From the IMG/VR virus record IMGVR_UViG_3300034062_001467, positions 1 to 21,597 of that record: a stretch of DNA of 21,597 nucleotides. One strand, given 5' to 3'. The first letter of the stretch is position 1, and every line of letters starts with the position of its first letter. Made by a program: the position numbers and the translations under genes. The notes beneath the pieces were generated by a model. The model was not told the origin of the DNA. It made no database searches and worked only from the letters and a program-made list of their open reading frames with translations. Below are positions 10,112-21,355 of the stretch, in pieces. The stretch is from a virus.

Positions 10112-11719
10112 GTGCCTCTGGTGCCTCTGAAGCCCTTCAAGGTGCCGCGAAGGGCGGCTGCCTCGCAGGTGGCGCAGTCCGCGATCATCCCCGCGCCTGT
10201 GGGCGGCCTCAACTACCGCGACCCGATCAGCGCCATGGATCCGCGTGACGCACTGGTGCTGACCAACCTGATACCGGGGCAGCAGGGCGTGGAGCTGCGC
10301 CGCGGCTGGTCTGAGTTTGCCGACGCCGTCGAGGCGGTCGATAACTCGGTGGAGGCGGTGTTCTCGTACAAGGCGCCCAGCTCGGCCAATGACAAGGTGT
10401 TCATGGCCGCAAACGGCAACATCTACGACGTCACCTTGGGCGGCACTCCGACGGTGGCCGTCACGGGCACCGGCAGTACCGATGACGAGTGGTGGACGAC
10501 GCAGTTCTCCACCGCAGCCGACACCTTCCTGCTGGCCGTCTCCCCGGGCGCGGGCTACTGGACCTACAGCACCACCTCGGGCTGGGTCAACCGCACCGGC
10601 ACCGTCACCGGCATGACCACCTCGGTGCGCACGGTCATGGTCTGGAAGCGCCGTGTCTGGTTCACGTTTGCGGACAGCCCAAACGTCTACTACATGAACG
10701 CGGTGGACGCGATCACCGGCACGGTGACGTCGTTCCCCATGGGCTCGCTGCTGCGCAACGGCGGCTACGTCTCGGCCATGGTCAACTGGACCACCGACGC
10801 CGGCATCTCGGTGGACGACTACCTGGTGGTGATCGGCACCGAGGGCGACGTGGGCGTGTGGCAGGGCACTGACCCCACCAGCGCGGCCACGTTCGAGCTC
10901 AAGGGCGTCTGGTACGTCGGCCCGGTGCCGCTGCATGGTCGGTACTTCACCACGTTCGGTGGCGACGTGATGATCGTCTCGCAGCTCGGCCTGGTGCCGA
11001 TGTCGCGCCTGTTCACCGGCCAGTTCAGCTCCGACAACCAGAACGTGGGCCCTGCGGCCAAGATCCAGACGGTGTTTGCGCCGCTGGTGCGCCGCCTGCG
11101 CGATGAAAAGTTCTGGAACGTCTTCGTGGTGCCGTCTTCTGATGTGCTGGTGATCTCGCTGCCGGTGGATGGTGACGTCTACCGGCAGTTCGCCATGAAC
11201 GTCACCACCGGGGCATGGTGCAGCTTTGAGGGCATGCCCATCCGTAGCGCGGCAGTCATCGGTGGCGAGCTGTACTTCGGGCAGTCCAACGGCACAACGT
11301 GCAAGGGCCTGACAGGCGACCTGGACGGCGTGGCGATTGACAGCACCGGGGGATCCTACGTTCTGGGCGAGGTGCAGTGTGCCTTCAACGCTTTCGGCAC
11401 GCCGGGGCAGTTGAAGAAGTTCAGCATGGCCCGGCCGATCTTTTTCGGGCCTGCGGCTCCCAGTGCGCAGTTGACGATCAACACGCAGTACGCCTTCAAA
11501 GACACCGCGGGCGCGCCTGCGTTTTCCGATCCTGGCGTTGCGTTGTGGGACACCGGCATCTGGAGCCAGGCTGTGTGGTTGACAAACAACAGCTACGAGT
11601 CTTGGTTCGGCACGGCCGCGCTGGGGTACTACGGGTCGATGCGCATGAAGCTGCGCGGCCTGCCGGGCACGTCGTTCCTGTCGGCGCACGTGCTCAGTGA
11701 AATGGGTGGGGTGATGTGA
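10112..11719 (+). CDS. Tail hub protein, P22 gp10 / tail tubular protein B-like (535 aa)
   Basis: GTG start at 10112, two bases after the previous stop; no nearby ATG gives the full N-terminal 'PAPVGGLNYRDPISAMDPRD' motif (about residues 28-47), typical of these proteins ('GGLNxRxP...MxPxDAxxLxNxxP'). The rest is almost entirely beta: repeated short blade-like units such as 'VWKRRVWFTF', 'DDYLVVIGTEGDVGVWQG', 'GGDVMIVSQLGLVPMSRLF' and 'GELYFGQSNGTTCKG', which suggest a propeller. In P22 and T7 the equivalent proteins build the short tail tube below the adaptor and hold packaged DNA in. Length fits P22 gp10 (about 470) better than T7 gp12 (about 790). The stop shares a base with the next ATG. 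Confidence 0.75.
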   Translation: MPLVPLKPFKVPRRAAASQVAQSAIIPAPVGGLNYRDPISAMDPRDALVLTNLIPGQQGVELRRGWSEFADAVEAVDNSVEAVFSYKAPSSANDKVFMAANGNIYDVTLGGTPTVAVTGTGSTDDEWWTTQFSTAADTFLLAVSPGAGYWTYSTTSGWVNRTGTVTGMTTSVRTVMVWKRRVWFTFADSPNVYYMNAVDAITGTVTSFPMGSLLRNGGYVSAMVNWTTDAGISVDDYLVVIGTEGDVGVWQGTDPTSAATFELKGVWYVGPVPLHGRYFTTFGGDVMIVSQLGLVPMSRLFTGQFSSDNQNVGPAAKIQTVFAPLVRRLRDEKFWNVFVVPSSDVLVISLPVDGDVYRQFAMNVTTGAWCSFEGMPIRSAAVIGGELYFGQSNGTTCKGLTGDLDGVAIDSTGGSYVLGEVQCAFNAFGTPGQLKKFSMARPIFFGPAAPSAQLTINTQYAFKDTAGAPAFSDPGVALWDTGIWSQAVWLTNNSYESWFGTAALGYYGSMRMKLRGLPGTSFLSAHVLSEMGGVM

Positions 11720-13185
11720 TGGCATTGACGGCAGAACAGACGACCCAAGCGACGCAGCTCAGCAATGGCCTGCCGTGGATCTACCCGGGCGCGTCAGACA
11801 CCGACTTCTGGGGCCAGTACTTCTCTGGCTCGGGGCCGTCCCTGACGCCGGCCGAGCAGGCCAGCGGCATCTCCATCGGGCCCATGGCCACCACCTCGCC
11901 CATGCCCACACCTGCGCCTGCTCCTCAGCCTCAGGTGCTGCCGGGGGTCAATGACATCGGTTACTGGCCGGAAGAAAGGGAAGGCTACGTGCCCCCTGGC
12001 GCGCCCGTGCAGTACCAGAGCGAGCTGATCCGCAGCCTGCGTGAGGCATCGCCGGGGTTCGGCACCAACAACCCGGGCGTGACGATGCTTGCCAACCCGG
12101 CCAACAGCAAGACCGTCATCGACTTCAAGCGTGCGCCGCCCGCTCCAACGCCCGCTCCAACGCCCGCGCCTACGCCCGCTCCAACGCCGGCGCCTCCTCG
12201 CTCGGGCGGCGGTGGAGGGGGCAGGCCTGTGACGCCTGGGCCGGTAATCATTGGGCCAGAGCCGTTGCCTGTCGAACCTGAACCCGCCCCTGCGCCTGCG
12301 CCTGATCCAGACGTGCCTGACTACACCGACGACCTGTGGCCTCCGGTGGAAGAGCAGCCGGTGGAAGAGCGGCCGCCGGTCGAGACGTTTCCGGTGCCAG
12401 ATCCGACGCCTCCGGATGTGGTGGATCTGCCCCCGCTGCCGCCAGAGGATGTGCCGGGCGTTCCTGACTACACGGATGATCTGTGGCCGCCTGTCGAGCC
12501 TGAGCCGCAAGACCCGCCGCAAGGTGAGATCGTTATCGAGCCGATTGGCGGGGGTGATCGTGATCAGATCCGCGAGGCTGATCCGGTCACTGTCGTCAGT
12601 GATCCGATTGATGAGTGGGAGCCAATAACTCTGCCAGAGATTGACTTGGCAGACCTAATGGGCCCGCCTTTGGTGCCGGGCGTTCCTGACTACACGGACG
12701 ATCTGTGGCCGCCTGTCGAGCCTGAACCTCAAGACCCTCCGCAGGGCGAGATCGTCATTGAACCCATTGGCGGGGGTGATCGTGATCAGATCCGCGAGGC
12801 TGATCCGGTCACTGTCGTCAGTGATCCGATTGATGAGTGGGAGCCAATAACTCTGCCAGAGATTGACTTGGCAGACCTAATGGGCCCGCCTTTGGTGCAA
12901 GACCCTCCGTCTCCATCGGTAGAGGTTGTGCAGGACTTGCCCGTCACCACGACACCAGCGCCGGTCTATGACCCTGTCGAAAACTTTGAAATCGACAGAG
13001 AACTTGGATTGGTTCCTGAGTGGGATGTGTACGTGCCTCCTTTCGAGAACTCCTTCGACTTTGCTTCCGAAAACTCCTTCGACTTTGACTTCTTTGACGA
13101 TGCCCTGTTCGGTGATTTCGGGTGGGGCGGCGGCGGGGGTGGCTTTGGCTCTTGGCGTGGCCCTGATGTGGTGATGATGGAATGA
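11719..13185 (+). CDS. Pro/acid-rich repeat protein in the tail-needle position (488 aa)
   Basis: I chose the ATG at 11719, overlapping the previous stop by one base, over a GTG one codon upstream. Residues 1-60 look folded (WIYPGASDTDFWGQYFSG), then the chain is largely disordered. It holds PT/PA runs (about 141-159), a glycine run, and acidic proline-rich segments. 'VPDYTDDLWPPVE' occurs three times (starting about residues 199, 248 and 322); the last two lie inside an exact 74-residue duplication (245-318 and 319-392). The C-terminus repeats 'ENSFDF' twice and ends in a Gly-rich, aromatic tail. No homologue recognised. In P22 the gene at this place encodes the tail needle gp26, but no trimeric coiled coil is seen here. 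The end overlaps the next gene by four bases (ATGA). Confidence 0.65.
   Translation: MALTAEQTTQATQLSNGLPWIYPGASDTDFWGQYFSGSGPSLTPAEQASGISIGPMATTSPMPTPAPAPQPQVLPGVNDIGYWPEEREGYVPPGAPVQYQSELIRSLREASPGFGTNNPGVTMLANPANSKTVIDFKRAPPAPTPAPTPAPTPAPTPAPPRSGGGGGGRPVTPGPVIIGPEPLPVEPEPAPAPAPDPDVPDYTDDLWPPVEEQPVEERPPVETFPVPDPTPPDVVDLPPLPPEDVPGVPDYTDDLWPPVEPEPQDPPQGEIVIEPIGGGDRDQIREADPVTVVSDPIDEWEPITLPEIDLADLMGPPLVPGVPDYTDDLWPPVEPEPQDPPQGEIVIEPIGGGDRDQIREADPVTVVSDPIDEWEPITLPEIDLADLMGPPLVQDPPSPSVEVVQDLPVTTTPAPVYDPVENFEIDRELGLVPEWDVYVPPFENSFDFASENSFDFDFFDDALFGDFGWGGGGGGFGSWRGPDVVMME
12139..12195 (+). repeat. 12-bp coding repeats (Pro-Ala-Pro-Thr)
   Basis: Just over four units of 12 bases such as cccgctccaacg, coding Pro-Ala-Pro-Thr, in tandem; third bases vary between units. 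A low-complexity linker followed immediately by a six-residue glycine run. Confidence 0.8.
12451..12898 (+). repeat. 222-bp tandem duplication (two copies) inside the Pro-rich protein
   Basis: Copies 12451-12672 and 12673-12894, period exactly 222 bp (74 codons), identity continuing four bases into the flank. The two copies encode the same 74 residues. All ten base differences fall between 12477 and 12543 (and their counterparts) at third codon positions; the following 133 bases are identical. A shorter related segment coding VPDYTDDLWPPVE lies upstream at 12313-12351. Confidence 0.95.
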
Positions 13186-13622
13186 AACTTGTCACCGATC
13201 AACCCGAGCAGTACCCGGTCGTCTGGCAGTGGATGAACCGGCGCACGCGGCTGCCTTGGAGCACCGACCTGCGCACGATCGCGTCCATGCGCGACGACGG
13301 CACCATCGCCTGTGCCGTGGCCTTCAACGCCTGGACGCACAGCGCCTGCTGGATGCACGTCGCGTTCGACGGCGAGCACGGCCTGACGCGCCAGCTCTGG
13401 GAGGCTGCCTTCCGCTACCCTTTCATCGACTGCGGGATGGAGGCCGTCTACGGGTTGACGCCCAAGGCGCTGGACGAGGCCCTAGCCATGAATGACAGGC
13501 TAGGGTTTCGCCGGGTCGCGGAGACAATCGACAGTGTGATGTTTGAAATGCGTGCCGACGACTGTCGGTGGCTGAAAGGAGTGAGACATGGGCGGCAAAG
13601 GCAGCGCACCTGCAGCGCCTGA
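13182..13622 (+). CDS. GNAT-like protein, T7 gp13-position (146 aa)
   Basis: ATG overlaps the previous stop (ATGA). The chain has a GNAT-like order of elements: a strand 'IACAVAFNAW' (about 42-51), 'ACWMHVAFDGEHGLTRQLWE' (about 55-74, the place of the acyl-CoA-binding loop and helix), 'YPFIDCGMEAVYGLTP' (79-94), and 'NDRLGF' (104-109), a common GNAT signature in which Asn and LGF follow the CoA-binding region, then the end 'MRADDCRWL'. The usual Q/RxxGxG/A loop is not clear, so acetyltransferase activity is uncertain. Small proteins of this type stand between tail-tube and ejection genes in many podoviruses, where T7 gp13 (about 138 aa) sits. The final 35 nt overlap the next gene, which has its own AAGGAG site within this frame. 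Confidence 0.65.
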   Translation: MKLVTDQPEQYPVVWQWMNRRTRLPWSTDLRTIASMRDDGTIACAVAFNAWTHSACWMHVAFDGEHGLTRQLWEAAFRYPFIDCGMEAVYGLTPKALDEALAMNDRLGFRRVAETIDSVMFEMRADDCRWLKGVRHGRQRQRTCSA

Positions 13623-14880
13623 CTACCTCGGCGCGGCCACCGCGCAGGCTCAGGCATCGGAGAAGGCCACGACGGCGCAGAACTTTGCGAACCGTCCGAC
13701 CGTCAACACCCCTTTTGGTGGCCAGTCCTGGACCACCGGCAGCCAGATTGACCCTGCCACTGGGCAGAATGTCACCACCTGGACGCAGAACACCACGCTG
13801 GCGCCTGGCCTGCAGTCCGCGCTCAACGCGCAAATCGGCCTGCAGAACGACCGCAGCCAACTGGCCAATGGGTTCATGGACCGGGTGGCTGAGGAATATC
13901 GGCAGCCCTTCGACTACGCCAACCTGCCGCAGATGGCCATGGCCAATGCGCCAAACAGCCTGGGCACGTCGCTGACCGACTACACCCCGGGCCTGACCAC
14001 CGGGTTCAACTTCGGCGGCGCGATCCCGCAGGTGGACTCCAGCTACCGCGACACGGTGGCCAACCAGCTCATGCAGCGCATGCAGCCGGTGCATGACTAC
14101 CAGCAGAACCAGCTTGAGACGCGCCTGGCCAACCAGGGCTTCACGGTGGGCAGCGAGGGCTACAAGCGGGCCTTGGACGAGCTCAACCAGCGCCAGGCGG
14201 GCGAGCGCTTCCAGGCCCTGGACCAGAGCGGCAACGAGATGCAGCGCCTGTTCGGCATGCAGATGCAGTCGCAGAACACGGGCTACAACCAGAACATGGG
14301 CGCCGCGCAATTCCAGAACCAGGCCCTGGGGCAGGCCGCCGCGCTGGATCAGTCGCGCCTGCAGGCGCAGAACGCGGCCATGGGCCAGCAGCAGGGCCTG
14401 AACCAGTCCTACGCCGACGCGCAGAACCGGGTGCGACAGCAGGCCATCGCGGAGCAGATGCAGCGCCGCGGCATGAGCCTGAACGAGATGAACGCGCTGC
14501 TGAGCGGCCAGCAGGTGCAGATGCCCAACATGCCGTCGTTCGTGGCCTCGGGCCGCGCCGAGACGCCCAACATCCTGGGCGCCACGCAGATGGGGTACGA
14601 CGCGCAGCTCGGCGCCTACAACGCGCAGAACGCGGCCTTCGGCAACTTGCTGGGAGCTGGTGCTCAACTGGGCTCGGCCGCGTTCATGTTCTCTGACCGG
14701 CGCCTGAAGTCCAACATCAAGCGCGTGGGGACTCACCCTATCGGGGTGGGCATTTACACGTACACAATGATGGGGATGCCACAACGCGGTGTGATTGCCC
14801 AAGAGGTGCAGGAAGTGCGTCCTGACTTGGTCAAGCGCCACGCCAGCGGCTACCTACAGGTGAACTACGGAGGCCTGTGA
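13588..14880 (+). CDS. Internal virion / DNA-ejection protein ending in a compact S74-like module (430 aa)
   Basis: ATG 13588 follows AAGGAG. The N-terminus 'MGGKGSAPAAPDYLGAATAQ' and a very Gln/Asn/Met/Ala-rich helical body (about residues 140-330: 'YQQNQLETRLANQGFTVGSE', 'LFGMQMQSQNTGYNQN') match phage internal/ejection proteins. Residues about 367-430 are a short peptidase_S74-like module: 'FSDRRLKSNIKRV' with S369 and K374 in the S-D-x-x-x-K spacing of the Ser/Lys dyad, then 'GVIAQEVQEVRPDLV' (401-415) and 'GYLQVNYGGL' at the end. S74 domains normally sit on fibres or spikes as trimerising chaperones that cut themselves off. Its position matches P22 gp7 or T7 gp14. Whether the module self-cleaves here is unknown. 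The stop shares a base with the next start. Confidence 0.75.
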   Translation: MGGKGSAPAAPDYLGAATAQAQASEKATTAQNFANRPTVNTPFGGQSWTTGSQIDPATGQNVTTWTQNTTLAPGLQSALNAQIGLQNDRSQLANGFMDRVAEEYRQPFDYANLPQMAMANAPNSLGTSLTDYTPGLTTGFNFGGAIPQVDSSYRDTVANQLMQRMQPVHDYQQNQLETRLANQGFTVGSEGYKRALDELNQRQAGERFQALDQSGNEMQRLFGMQMQSQNTGYNQNMGAAQFQNQALGQAAALDQSRLQAQNAAMGQQQGLNQSYADAQNRVRQQAIAEQMQRRGMSLNEMNALLSGQQVQMPNMPSFVASGRAETPNILGATQMGYDAQLGAYNAQNAAFGNLLGAGAQLGSAAFMFSDRRLKSNIKRVGTHPIGVGIYTYTMMGMPQRGVIAQEVQEVRPDLVKRHASGYLQVNYGGL

Positions 14881-15242
14881 TGAATGACGACCTGATGTTC
14901 GACTACCTCCTGCAGCTGGGCGCAATGCGTCCTGAGCAGGATGAGCTCAAGCGCAAGCAGGCCATGGTGGACGCCCTGCGCGGCCAGGCCATGACGCCGA
15001 TGCAAGGCCAGATGGTGGGCAAGCACTACGTGGCGCCCGGCATCGCCAACGCCATCGCCCAGATGGGCACGGCCTACATGGCCGGGCAGCAGCAGAAGGG
15101 CGTGGACAGCAGCGCGATGGCCTTCAACAACCGGCAGCGCGCCGCGTTGGAGGAGATGCGGCGCCGTCGCCGGCCCCAGATGCCGGGCATGGACAGCCCA
15201 AGCCTGTCCGCGTTGCCCTACGGTGACGGCCCGGCCTACTGA
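14880..15242 (+). CDS. Small Met/Gln-rich protein in the ejection gene block (120 aa)
   Basis: ATG 14880 overlaps the upstream stop by one base and is served by GGAGG inside the previous gene; the in-frame GTG one codon earlier is less likely. Sequence: acidic start 'MNDDLMFDYLLQLGAMRPEQ', a Met/Gln-rich middle ('QAMTPMQGQMVGKHYVAPGI', 'ANAIAQMGTAYMAGQQQ'), then a basic stretch 'RRRRRPQMPGMD' and a Pro/Ser tail. No known domain recognised. It could be a small internal protein packaged with the larger ejection proteins on either side; composition and tight coupling are the only support. Confidence 0.6.
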   Translation: MNDDLMFDYLLQLGAMRPEQDELKRKQAMVDALRGQAMTPMQGQMVGKHYVAPGIANAIAQMGTAYMAGQQQKGVDSSAMAFNNRQRAALEEMRRRRRPQMPGMDSPSLSALPYGDGPAY

Positions 15243-15251
15243 GGTGGCGCC

Positions 15252-16553
15252 ATGAACGACCTGACCTTTGCCGAGGACGTGCTGGAGCGCAAGCGGCTCC
15301 AGCGCAGCATGCTGCCGATGGCGCTGGGCGTCATGAATTCGCCTGACGGCACGCTGACGAACAGTGTGCAGCCTGGCCGGGCCCTGCCGTCTGCGCTGCG
15401 TGCGCGCCTGGGCAAGGTGCAGAGCCAACTGGACGAGCTCGACAGCCAGGAGGTGGACACCTCCGCGCTGCAGGCCTTCGCCCAGCAGCAGGGCGAGAGC
15501 GGCCAGACGGCCATGCTCAACGCCTTGGCGGCGCAGTACGCGGGGGAGAACTTCCAGCCGGTGCAGGCGCAGTTCCTCAAGCGCGCCGCGGCTGCGGCCG
15601 AGCCGATGAAGATCGGCGGCGGCATGCTGACCCCGCAGGGTCAGTTCGTGAAGGATCCGTTCGCGCAGCGTGACCAGCGGCGCACGGCGCTGGAGCGCCA
15701 GGCTCTGGGGCTGGAGCGGATGGCTGGCGAGGAGGAGCGGGCTGCAGAGCGTGCTGCCGAGGTGGCCCGACAGTTCAACGAGCGCCGTGCTGATCAGCAG
15801 CGACGGGACGCAGATGCTGCGGAGTTCAGGCGCTTGGGGCTTGGTCTCCAGCAGCTTGGCCTCGACCTGCGACGCGAGGCGCTGGGCAAGAAGGGAGACG
15901 GCCAGGTGGGTTCGTTCTCGCCGGCCGGCTTCACCCCGCAGGGCCAGCAAGTGGTGACCAACACCAAGAGCGGTGTGAGCTACATCCTGAACGTTCAGCC
16001 GGATGGCACGCCCAACTACACGCCCTATCAAGGCACGATGATCCCCAAGGGCACCTTCGACAAGGAGGTGTCAGCCGCAGGGGATCTGTCTGCGGTGGCA
16101 TCCCGTGCCGACAGGCTGGTGCAGATGGTTGACGCCAACCCCGACGCGTTCGGGCTGCGCAGCGCGGCCGTGTCTGCGTTGCCGGGTGCCGTGCAGGGCT
16201 ACGCGGCGAAGGCTGTGGGCCTGACGCCACAGCAACTTGAGGCGCGCTCGACGGTGCTGCGCCAGGCTGCGCAGGAGATCAACGAGCTGTACGGCGCCGC
16301 GCTGTCCATGGGCGAGCAGGCCCGCGCCAACACCTTCCTGCCCAACCCGTCAGACCCGCCTGAGATGCTGATGAGCAAGCTGAAGGCGGCGCGCGATTGG
16401 GCCAAGACCCAGTTGGGTCGTTACAGCCCCGGCGTCACAGATGCGGCCACCCAGCGTTCAGGCGGCGCGGCACCGGCCCCTGGTGCTGGAACACTTAGCC
16501 CGGCTGAGATGGAAGAGCTGGCGCGCCTGCGGGCCAAGCACGGGAGGCAGTGA
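15252..16553 (+). CDS. Probable internal virion / DNA-ejection protein, helical (433 aa)
   Basis: ATG 15252 follows GAGG. An Ala/Gln-rich helical N-terminal half is followed by a long uninterrupted charged helix (about residues 138-214; 'RRTALERQALGLERMAGEEE', 'ERRADQQRRDADAAEFRRLG'), a beta-type linker ('PQGQQVVTNTKSGVSYILNV') and a second helical region ('RSTVLRQAAQEINELYGAAL') ending 'ELARLRAKHGRQ'. The build and position correspond to P22 gp20 or T7 gp15, proteins that assemble into the trans-periplasmic ejection conduit. No lysozyme or transglycosylase motif found. The stop shares one base with the following ATG. Confidence 0.65.
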   Translation: MNDLTFAEDVLERKRLQRSMLPMALGVMNSPDGTLTNSVQPGRALPSALRARLGKVQSQLDELDSQEVDTSALQAFAQQQGESGQTAMLNALAAQYAGENFQPVQAQFLKRAAAAAEPMKIGGGMLTPQGQFVKDPFAQRDQRRTALERQALGLERMAGEEERAAERAAEVARQFNERRADQQRRDADAAEFRRLGLGLQQLGLDLRREALGKKGDGQVGSFSPAGFTPQGQQVVTNTKSGVSYILNVQPDGTPNYTPYQGTMIPKGTFDKEVSAAGDLSAVASRADRLVQMVDANPDAFGLRSAAVSALPGAVQGYAAKAVGLTPQQLEARSTVLRQAAQEINELYGAALSMGEQARANTFLPNPSDPPEMLMSKLKAARDWAKTQLGRYSPGVTDAATQRSGGAAPAPGAGTLSPAEMEELARLRAKHGRQ

Positions 16554-19219: not shown

Positions 19220-19951
19220 ATGAGTACCCTTTCGCAATTCATCTCCGGCGGCAAGTCTCAGTCGCAAGTCTTCACCAGCGGCAGCGGCAACTGGACGGTG
19301 CCCGTGGGCGTCACCAGCGTGCGCGTGTTCGCGGTGGGTGCTGGTGGGGGAGGCGGTGGGGGCTACACCTCAAGCTACCGCGGCGGCGGTGGTGGTGGCG
19401 GGGCGGTTGTCGAGATCGACCTGGCCGTGACCTCCGGCGCGTCCATCGCCTACGCAGTGGGCGCAGCCGGCACGGCCGGGGCCATCAACGGCGGGGGCGG
19501 CGCAGGCGGCAACACCACCTTCGGCACCGTCACGGCCTACGGCGGCGGCGGTGGTGCCAAGGGCCAAACGGGCACCGACGGCGGGGGGGGCGGCGGTGGC
19601 GGCTTCAGTGCTGCTGGTGCCACCTCGGGCAGCAACATCGGCGGCGCTGGCGGTGGCGGCACTGGCGGCGCTGGCGGTGACAACGGCGTCGGCGGCTCGG
19701 CTGGCGTCGTGTTCCTGAACGGCCAGGGCGGCGGGGGCGGTGGTGGTGGCAACGCCAACGGCGGGGCCAGCATGGCCGGCGGCGGTGCTGCTAGTTCCAA
19801 CCGCGGCGGTGGTGGAGGCTCCTACGGGGCCGGTGCTGCAGGCGGGGCGGCCGGGGCTGCCAACACAGGTGGCGGCGGCGGTGGCGGTGCAATCAACACG
19901 GCCGGCAACGCAGGTGGTTCAGGTTATCTGATGGTGACGTGGGTCGGTTGA
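19220..19951 (+). CDS. Glycine-rich tail fibre / adhesin protein (243 aa)
   Basis: After a short N-terminus, residues about 17-42 ('VFTSGSGNWTVPVGVTSVRV') form the beta opening seen in phage glycine-rich domain proteins; the rest to the end is dominated by glycine runs of 4-8 separated by Ala, Asn, Ser and Tyr, closing on 'GGSGYLMVTWVG'. Glycine-rich adhesins such as phage S16 gp38 fold as packed polyglycine-II helices with receptor-binding loops at one end; that fold is possible here but not shown. Spacing to the upstream fibre is 12 nt; the ribosome site is weak ('gagaaagtag'). It pairs with a second such gene at 20513. Confidence 0.8.
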   Translation: MSTLSQFISGGKSQSQVFTSGSGNWTVPVGVTSVRVFAVGAGGGGGGGYTSSYRGGGGGGGAVVEIDLAVTSGASIAYAVGAAGTAGAINGGGGAGGNTTFGTVTAYGGGGGAKGQTGTDGGGGGGGGFSAAGATSGSNIGGAGGGGTGGAGGDNGVGGSAGVVFLNGQGGGGGGGGNANGGASMAGGGAASSNRGGGGGSYGAGAAGGAAGAANTGGGGGGGAINTAGNAGGSGYLMVTWVG

Positions 19952-19961
19952 GGAGTTTGCA

Positions 19962-20516
19962 ATGTCCAAGGCAAGAGATGCAGCAGACAAGGCGCCAGTC
20001 GCGGCGACGCTGTCTGGTACTGAAACGCTGACCAACAAGACGATCAGCGGTGCCAGCAATACCGTTACGAACATCCCTCTGTCTACAGGCGTGACGGGTA
20101 CGTTGCCTGTGGCGAATGGGGGAACAGGTAATACCTTCTTCTCGGTGAGCGGCCCTGCAAGCAGCACGAAGACCTACACGTTTCCTAATGAGAACATGAC
20201 CGTGGGGTATCGAAACCTCCCAGCGGTTGGCACGCAGACTGGCAGTTATACGCTTGGTGTGAACGATGTCGGCAAGTACGTGCAAGTCGGCACGGGCGGC
20301 AGTATCACGATCCCGACATCGACTTTTGCTGAAGGCGATGCGATCACCATCTACAACAACACGACCGGCAACATTACGATTACCTGCTCTGCGCCCACGG
20401 CGTACATAGCGGGCACCAACACAGTCAAAACCTCAATGACGCTTGCCACTCGCGGTGTGGCAACTGTGCTGTTCTACAGCGCCACCGCTTGTGTGGTGAC
20501 AGGGAACGTGACATGA
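19962..20516 (+). CDS. Tail fibre protein (184 aa)
   Basis: ATG 19962 follows GAGGAG. Residues 1-60 contain the very common fibre phrases 'SGTETLTNKTISGASNTVTN' and 'VTGTLPVANGGTGNT'. The second half ('YTLGVNDVGKYVQVGTGGSI', 'FAEGDAITIYNNTTGNITIT', 'TRGVATVLFYSATACVVTGN') is a compact beta domain frequently at fibre C-termini. The first third is still G/C-ending in codon use, while the remainder uses many A/T-ending codons (gtt, aat, tat), the first sign of the compositional change that continues to the end of the window. The stop overlaps the next start (ATGA). Confidence 0.8.
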   Translation: MSKARDAADKAPVAATLSGTETLTNKTISGASNTVTNIPLSTGVTGTLPVANGGTGNTFFSVSGPASSTKTYTFPNENMTVGYRNLPAVGTQTGSYTLGVNDVGKYVQVGTGGSITIPTSTFAEGDAITIYNNTTGNITITCSAPTAYIAGTNTVKTSMTLATRGVATVLFYSATACVVTGNVT

Positions 20517-21355
20517 CCGGGATCATGCAGATGGTGTTTGGTAGTTTTGCAGGAATAGTTCCTGCTGGACAACAAGCCTACACGACGGCAGGCACTTACA
20601 CATGGGTTTGCCCTGCTGGTGTTACGTCTGTTGCGGTTTTGGTTGTGGGTGCTGGTGGTAAGGGTGGCAGTGCTCAAAATGCCGGGTGCTGTGCCGCAGA
20701 CAGTGGTGGCGGTGGAGGAGGCGGGGGGCTCGCCTATGGAAATTCAATAGCCGTAACACCGGGGACTTCTTATACGCTGCGCGTTGCAGCAGCAGACTCT
20801 GCGCAAAGCAGCTACTTTAATACCACAGGGTTTCTATTTGCCAACAGTGGTGACAACGGCGGTTCTGTATCTCCGGGGTCCGGTGGAACTACGGGAGGTA
20901 CGGCACGTACCGCAGGATACACAGGTGGGTCTGGTGGTACGGGCGATTCCGGGTCTGTTGCTGCCGGGGCTGGTGGTGGTGGCGCTGCGGGATATGCAGG
21001 CGCTGGAGGCGCTGGTGGAAATGATCAAGTTGCGGGGAGTAATGCTGCTGCTAGTAGTGGCGGCGGTGGTGGTGGCGGCGGCGGCACCAACAACAATTAC
21101 GGGGGCAATGGTGGCGGCGTAGGATTGCTTGGCAGTGGCTCAACGGGCACTGGCGGTGCTACAGACGCAAATGGCACAGCAGGAAGTGGCGGGTCCGGTG
21201 TAACTTATGGGGGCGGGGGCGGCGGCGCAGGTGCTCAAAATGGCGGACCATTTAACGCTGGAAATTCAGGCGGTGTTGGTGCAGTTCGCATCATTTGGGC
21301 AGGGACTACAGGTATAACTCGCGCGTTTCCATCTACAAACACGGGGGACTTGTAA
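20513..21355 (+). CDS. Second glycine-rich tail adhesin (280 aa)
   Basis: I chose ATG 20513 (MTGIMQMVFGSF), which overlaps the previous stop; an in-frame upstream start at 20489 would lie inside the previous gene, and ATG 20525 is an alternative. Residues about 28-56 ('QAYTTAGTYTWVCPAGVTSV', then 'AVLVVGAGGKGG') match the opening of the 243-residue glycine-rich protein; after that come long glycine runs mixed with Ala, Thr, Ser and Asn, and the ending 'GVGAVRIIWAG' also resembles its partner's. Unlike the partner it has a Cys-Cys pair in 'NAGCCAADSGG'. A/T-ending codons are frequent. Probably a receptor-binding tip protein. The stop overlaps the next start by one base. Confidence 0.8.
   Translation: MTGIMQMVFGSFAGIVPAGQQAYTTAGTYTWVCPAGVTSVAVLVVGAGGKGGSAQNAGCCAADSGGGGGGGGLAYGNSIAVTPGTSYTLRVAAADSAQSSYFNTTGFLFANSGDNGGSVSPGSGGTTGGTARTAGYTGGSGGTGDSGSVAAGAGGGGAAGYAGAGGAGGNDQVAGSNAAASSGGGGGGGGGTNNNYGGNGGGVGLLGSGSTGTGGATDANGTAGSGGSGVTYGGGGGGAGAQNGGPFNAGNSGGVGAVRIIWAGTTGITRAFPSTNTGDL

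Follow-up and report, generated by a model that had tools for sequence, protein, structure and literature searches.

Tailed phages evolve as mosaics, through homologous as well as illegitimate recombination. The DNA described here is the same in kind: the window (i.e. the whole stretch of 21,597 nucleotides that was analysed, a virus record from IMG/VR, a virus contig collection) alternates patches of near-100% identity to its relatives with parts at 85-95% identity, and one of its genes contains a short imported tract. It is the resolution that is unusual, with a patch of 40-53 bp lying within one copy of a fresh repeat. The event is ordinary phage recombination in an unusually changeable gene.

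Two described systems come close to this gene by their repeats. Borg elements have amino-acid tandem repeats with intragenic variation of the unit number (PMC9879509), and intragenic tandem-repeat variation is reported for E. coli tolA (PMC3477136). Our gene resembles these systems in that the unit length is a multiple of three, that disorder is predicted and that the number of units varies from one close relative to another; a further likeness, reported for a Borg repeat, is that units differ synonymously (PMC9879509). It differs from both in that the unit is long (222 bp), that there are two copies only and that the difference between them can be traced to the allele of another phage lineage. 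By gene order, the window recalls the Mx8-like podoviruses (Myxococcus Mx8, Stenotrophomonas BUCT555 and ctMlz233): identity is 26-33% in two virion genes, and the shared order is capsid, p50/p51-like, head-closure/stabilisation (p52-like), acetyltransferase or p53, and structural protein. Unlike the window, these three phages have no repeat-rich gene in the slot that separates the stabilisation gene from the small gene after it.

A variable slot and its two neighbours

The gene that carries the repeat occupies a slot between a gene matching phrog_5107 (upstream), for which the cultured relatives are labelled head closure, stabilisation or tubular tail protein, and amidase in some records, and an acetyltransferase gene (downstream).

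11719-13185, plus strand: ORF of the variable slot protein (488 amino acids); its two ends overlap the upstream gene's stop and the downstream GNAT gene's start
12016-12093, plus strand, approximate limits: conserved core of the slot family (YQS-LI-SLR-A...NNPGV-NP), the best conserved part across 18 aligned relatives

The slot is filled in 61 of the 72 loci having both neighbours and empty in the other 11, including Mx8, BUCT555 and ctMlz233. Slot proteins of 11 close phages have a median identity of 45% (26-87%) and range from 302 to 581 amino acids; the two neighbour proteins are mostly 93-97% identical to those of the window in close relatives. A helix-like [LMI]I-x-LR core, as defined by a loose pattern, is kept in 61 of 61 slot proteins. 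Very different proteins fill the slot in loci L015-L095, some with DUF4214 (for instance L017 and L080) or RTX-like repeats (L069).

Two copies of one unit and their alleles in relatives

Four features define the repeat.

12451-12672, plus strand: copy 1 of the 222-bp unit
12673-12894, plus strand: copy 2 of the 222-bp unit, equal to the single-copy allele of L003, L004 and L005 from offset 9 on
12669-12680, plus strand: duplication junction TTTG-GTGC-CGGGCG, with 4 bp (GTGC) common to unit start and unit end
12504-12543, plus strand: smallest extent of the patch imported into copy 1, with nine diagnostic sites in 40 bp (outer limits about 12496-12548)

The sequence-only reading of this DNA had described an exact duplication of 74 residues in two 222-bp copies, and so it is: the copies are adjacent and in frame, share the translation VPGVPDYTDDLWPPVEPEPQDPPQGEIVIEPIGGGDRDQIREADPVTVVSDPIDEWEPITLPEIDLADLMGPPL, and are followed by the 4 nt GTGC at 12895-12898. 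A recount also upheld the ten third-position differences clustered in 67 bp (offsets 26, 53, 56, 65, 71, 74, 83, 86, 89 and 92, counted from 0) and the 133 identical bp that come after the last of them, 129 within the unit and 4 beyond. Ten changes put randomly on degenerate third positions would span so short a distance with P ∼5×10−5, and the fact that all ten are synonymous has P ∼6×10−7 without selection. A search of the record for a further tandem copy found only these two and a 39-nt element.

IMG/VR was scanned with two DNA patterns and with the proteins of the slot gene and of its two neighbours; the segment was found in six other contigs (L003, L004, L005, L006, L008 and L019). The comparison of copy number and per-site differences that had been proposed for related phages could thus be made: all six carry a single copy, and both variants are present as alleles, L003, L004 and L005 having the copy-2 base at ten of ten sites, L006 and L019 the copy-1 base at nine and eight sites, respectively, which is evidence from five contigs, L003 and L004 being nearly identical to each other. 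Because both variants occur in separate single-copy phages, the inter-copy differences are best read as old between-lineage alleles separating two phage groups, not as changes that followed the duplication. The earlier proposal of a protein under selection while its DNA drifts consequently fails for these ten differences, and the selection against recombination between copies that had been invoked beside it is unlikely, 133 bp of perfect identity still being present. Between lineages, the alleles do bear the mark of purifying selection (10 synonymous and 0 nonsynonymous changes in the 5′ segment); the 3′ half of the unit differs from L006/L019 by 12-13 nonsynonymous changes, and hence is not strictly conserved. 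One of the ten sites, offset 26 of copy 1 (GAT), is private, i.e. found in none of the relatives. The CCG GGC codons that open both copies (VPG) are also absent from all of them, and the closest candidates, donor-like L006/L019 and recipient-like L003-L005, are not the exact parents.

Followed from its start, copy 1 is L005-like at offsets 15, 23 and 44, L006-like without exception at the nine sites of offsets 53-92, and L005-like again at all informative sites from offset 98 to the unit end. Copy 1 is an L003-L005 sequence with a patch of L006/L019 type, between 40 and 53 bp long: a donor-type block with recipient-type sites on either side, and a mosaic at base-pair resolution. Of the nine diagnostic sites in the patch, all agree with L006 and eight with L019. 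When L006 and L005 are taken as the parents, the 40 informative sites include these nine as a single run (exact P ∼1.1×10−6, an optimistic value, the parent pair having been picked after inspection). L008 was also tried as donor and was rejected by the run test (P = 0.85). Gene conversion overwriting part of one copy had been considered in the sequence-only reading. Recombination of this type does fit, but with the two parts in exchanged roles: comparison with the relatives shows the differing stretch to be the import (L006/L019 type) and the identical stretch to be simply young.

Origin of the pair and competing explanations

From offset 93 on, no difference separates the two copies from one another or from L003-L005 (0 changes in 30.7 synonymous sites, as against 10 changes in 19.3 synonymous sites in the 5′ segment); a uniform age is therefore excluded. 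Beyond the same offset, L006 and L019 differ from the copies at 42-49% of synonymous sites. The duplication thus appears to be recent, which would be why the 3′ part of the copies is identical. Other marks of a recent event are that the copies are adjacent and in frame, that relatives have a single copy and that the junction is absent from them; a pattern search found the junction 26-mer in no other IMG/VR contig, the duplication being known from this one record. The GTGC microhomology of 4 bp is the likely seed of the duplication, because GTGC also stands at the unit end in L003/L004 (GTGCAAGAC).

The explanation that we prefer, with a probability of about 0.8, is a recent tandem duplication plus one short inter-phage exchange; the variation in number of other modules of the slot gene among relatives, the exact runs that the right arm of the window, unlike the left, shares with L005 (see below) and the low-confidence structure model of the slot protein were also counted in its favour. 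In a podovirus-like phage, a 222-bp segment of a predicted disordered, repeat-built accessory gene would have been doubled in tandem and in frame, presumably by out-of-register recombination or template switching at the GTGC microhomology, and an exchange of 40-53 bp with a related lineage would have brought the L006/L019-type allele into copy 1. Either the duplication came first and copy 1 was patched afterwards, or a patched and an unpatched sibling gave rise to the pair by unequal crossover. Both histories would take two events and are equal in cost; the order is something that we infer only.

A first alternative is an artefact, in which metagenome assembly fused two co-occurring strains into a false tandem copy. 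In favour of it, the record was taken from a collection of virus contigs, 133 bp of exact repeat come near common assembler k-mer sizes, and the arms on either side are closest to different relatives. On the right-hand side of the unit, the window matches L005 exactly at 12682-12898, 13197-13550, 14218-14915 and 15117-15331, the longest run being of 698 bp. The left arm adjoining the unit has about 82-99% identity per 100 bp to any relative; most of the region from 7.5 to 12.5 kb is not consistently nearer L005 than other relatives (8.7-9.3 kb is an exception), and the N-terminal part of the slot protein is of the L006/L007/L019/L023 type, not of the L005 type. We nevertheless regard an artefact as quite unlikely. 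Only 8 and 5 bp at the patch borders are common to both alleles, probably too short for k-mer merging; the reading frame is preserved; and the junction of unit end and unit start, absent from every single-copy relative, could not have been created by a mix of strains alone.

Another possibility, to which we give an even smaller chance, is that the duplication is old, the protein having been selected in both copies while the DNA drifted, until gene conversion between the copies erased the 3′ differences. This would account for ten synonymous differences out of ten, and tandem units elsewhere in the family (for example DDLFVGPPAP, six times in L097) do keep the peptide while codons diverge. However, drift between the copies is unnecessary when both variants are alleles in single-copy phages; moreover, all other relatives with the segment are single-copy, and L003-L005 have the very bases of copy 2, and of copy 1 in its 3′ half, except in the first codons of the unit. 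Least probable of all is an ancestral dimer from which L003-L006, L008 and L019 each lost one copy: deletion between direct repeats is easy and loss of an FPVPDP module is seen nearby, but several independent losses would be required and no relative has any trace of the junction sequence.

If recent duplication with one exchange is the right explanation, the locus provides a base-resolved case in which repeat copies that differ only synonymously can owe their divergence to imported alleles and not to drift under selection. Dating repeats by the differences between their copies is a trap when these differences are imported.

Repeat modules and possible role of the slot protein

The unit is one of several repeats in the slot gene, in which six of the nine tandem-repeat entries of the window fall.

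12137-12195, plus strand: Pro/Thr/Ala 12-bp tandem repeat
12312-12350, plus strand: older copy of the VPDYTDDLWPPVE motif, 85% identical over 39 nt
12386-12450, plus strand: FPVPDPTPPDVVDLPPLPPED (FPVPDP) module, single here, with two copies in L003-L006 and L019 and three in L023
13040-13092, plus strand: 24-bp tandem repeat (ENSFDF), also in L003-L005 and single in L008

The third, upstream element that had been noticed is real (it is the VPDYTDDLWPPVE motif), but it is not a step of this duplication, because it stands at the corresponding place in L003-L007, L019 and L023 (it is not in L008). The stepwise growth of a repeat series that it had suggested is true of the gene family in the long term; the short motif itself is older and shared. 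The number of PDYTDD-like motifs goes from 0 to 9 per relative, and in L026 a higher-order unit of 72 bp, its codons matching, is repeated for nearly three rounds. In the slot ORF of L097 (positions 118-177), six DDLFVGPPAP units have the same peptide in three codon versions, arranged in blocks of 3, 2 and 1. DNA is identical inside the blocks and differs only synonymously between them, with 68 synonymous and 0 nonsynonymous pairwise codon differences. Judging from such sequences, the peptide motifs of the slot family seem to be constrained; selection of the peptide while codons diverge, as had been proposed, is thus supported in the family, but not for the present pair.

The 488-aa protein is rich in Pro (20%), Asp+Glu (18%) and Gly (9%), and a profile search gave no PHROG or Pfam match. 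The only PDB sequence match, to residues 139-198 (E 0.0036), was disregarded as weak and confined to a low-complexity, Pro/Gly-rich stretch. The AlphaFold2 model (18 sequences; mean pLDDT 50.7, pTM 0.18, no residue reaching a pLDDT of 90) has two short helices only, one of them in the conserved core at 12016-12093, and leaves the repeat region without predicted fold; it is consistent with disorder and is not proof of it. From gene position, predicted disorder and motif arrays, we tentatively suggest that the slot protein could be a flexible linker or a multi-motif binding protein of the neck/tail module; a non-virion accessory protein would be the alternative. For a linker or binding protein, gain and loss of PDYTDDLWP-type motifs would alter length and valency.

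The locus draws attention to a slot for accessory genes that is hypervariable, in a phage lineage of which few relatives have been cultured. Our search found no cultured phage with the slot gene, scans of bacterial and archaeal genomes for a host or prophage gave no relative, and no report of the slot gene or of the duplication/patch event was found in the open-licence PMC literature. At this stage we can only speculate that the slot might be a dedicated diversification site of a large uncultured phage lineage, where a short docking helix would be kept and disordered acidic-aromatic arrays rebuilt by duplication, loss and patching, with peptides selected and codons free, and where motif number or type would set binding to a host or virion partner; we hold this broader idea to be doubtful.

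Some minor observations concern the surroundings of the unit. In its C-terminal tail (GFGSWRGPDVVMME, window 13150-13185), the slot protein is unlike that of L004/L005 (long Gly run, FRVEPYQLE), although the flanks on both sides are the same as theirs or nearly so. Beyond the gene, 13197-13550 is base-identical to L005 and L004, and 14218-15331 has two mismatches to L005; amid 85-95% identity elsewhere, this near-identity could be read as recent exchange or hitchhiking. Further along the window, a structural protein whose C-terminal domain is Peptidase_S74 (endosialidase chaperone) is encoded at 13588-14880, and two glycine-rich proteins with Pfam Gly_rich_2 matches at 19220-19951 and 20489-21355.
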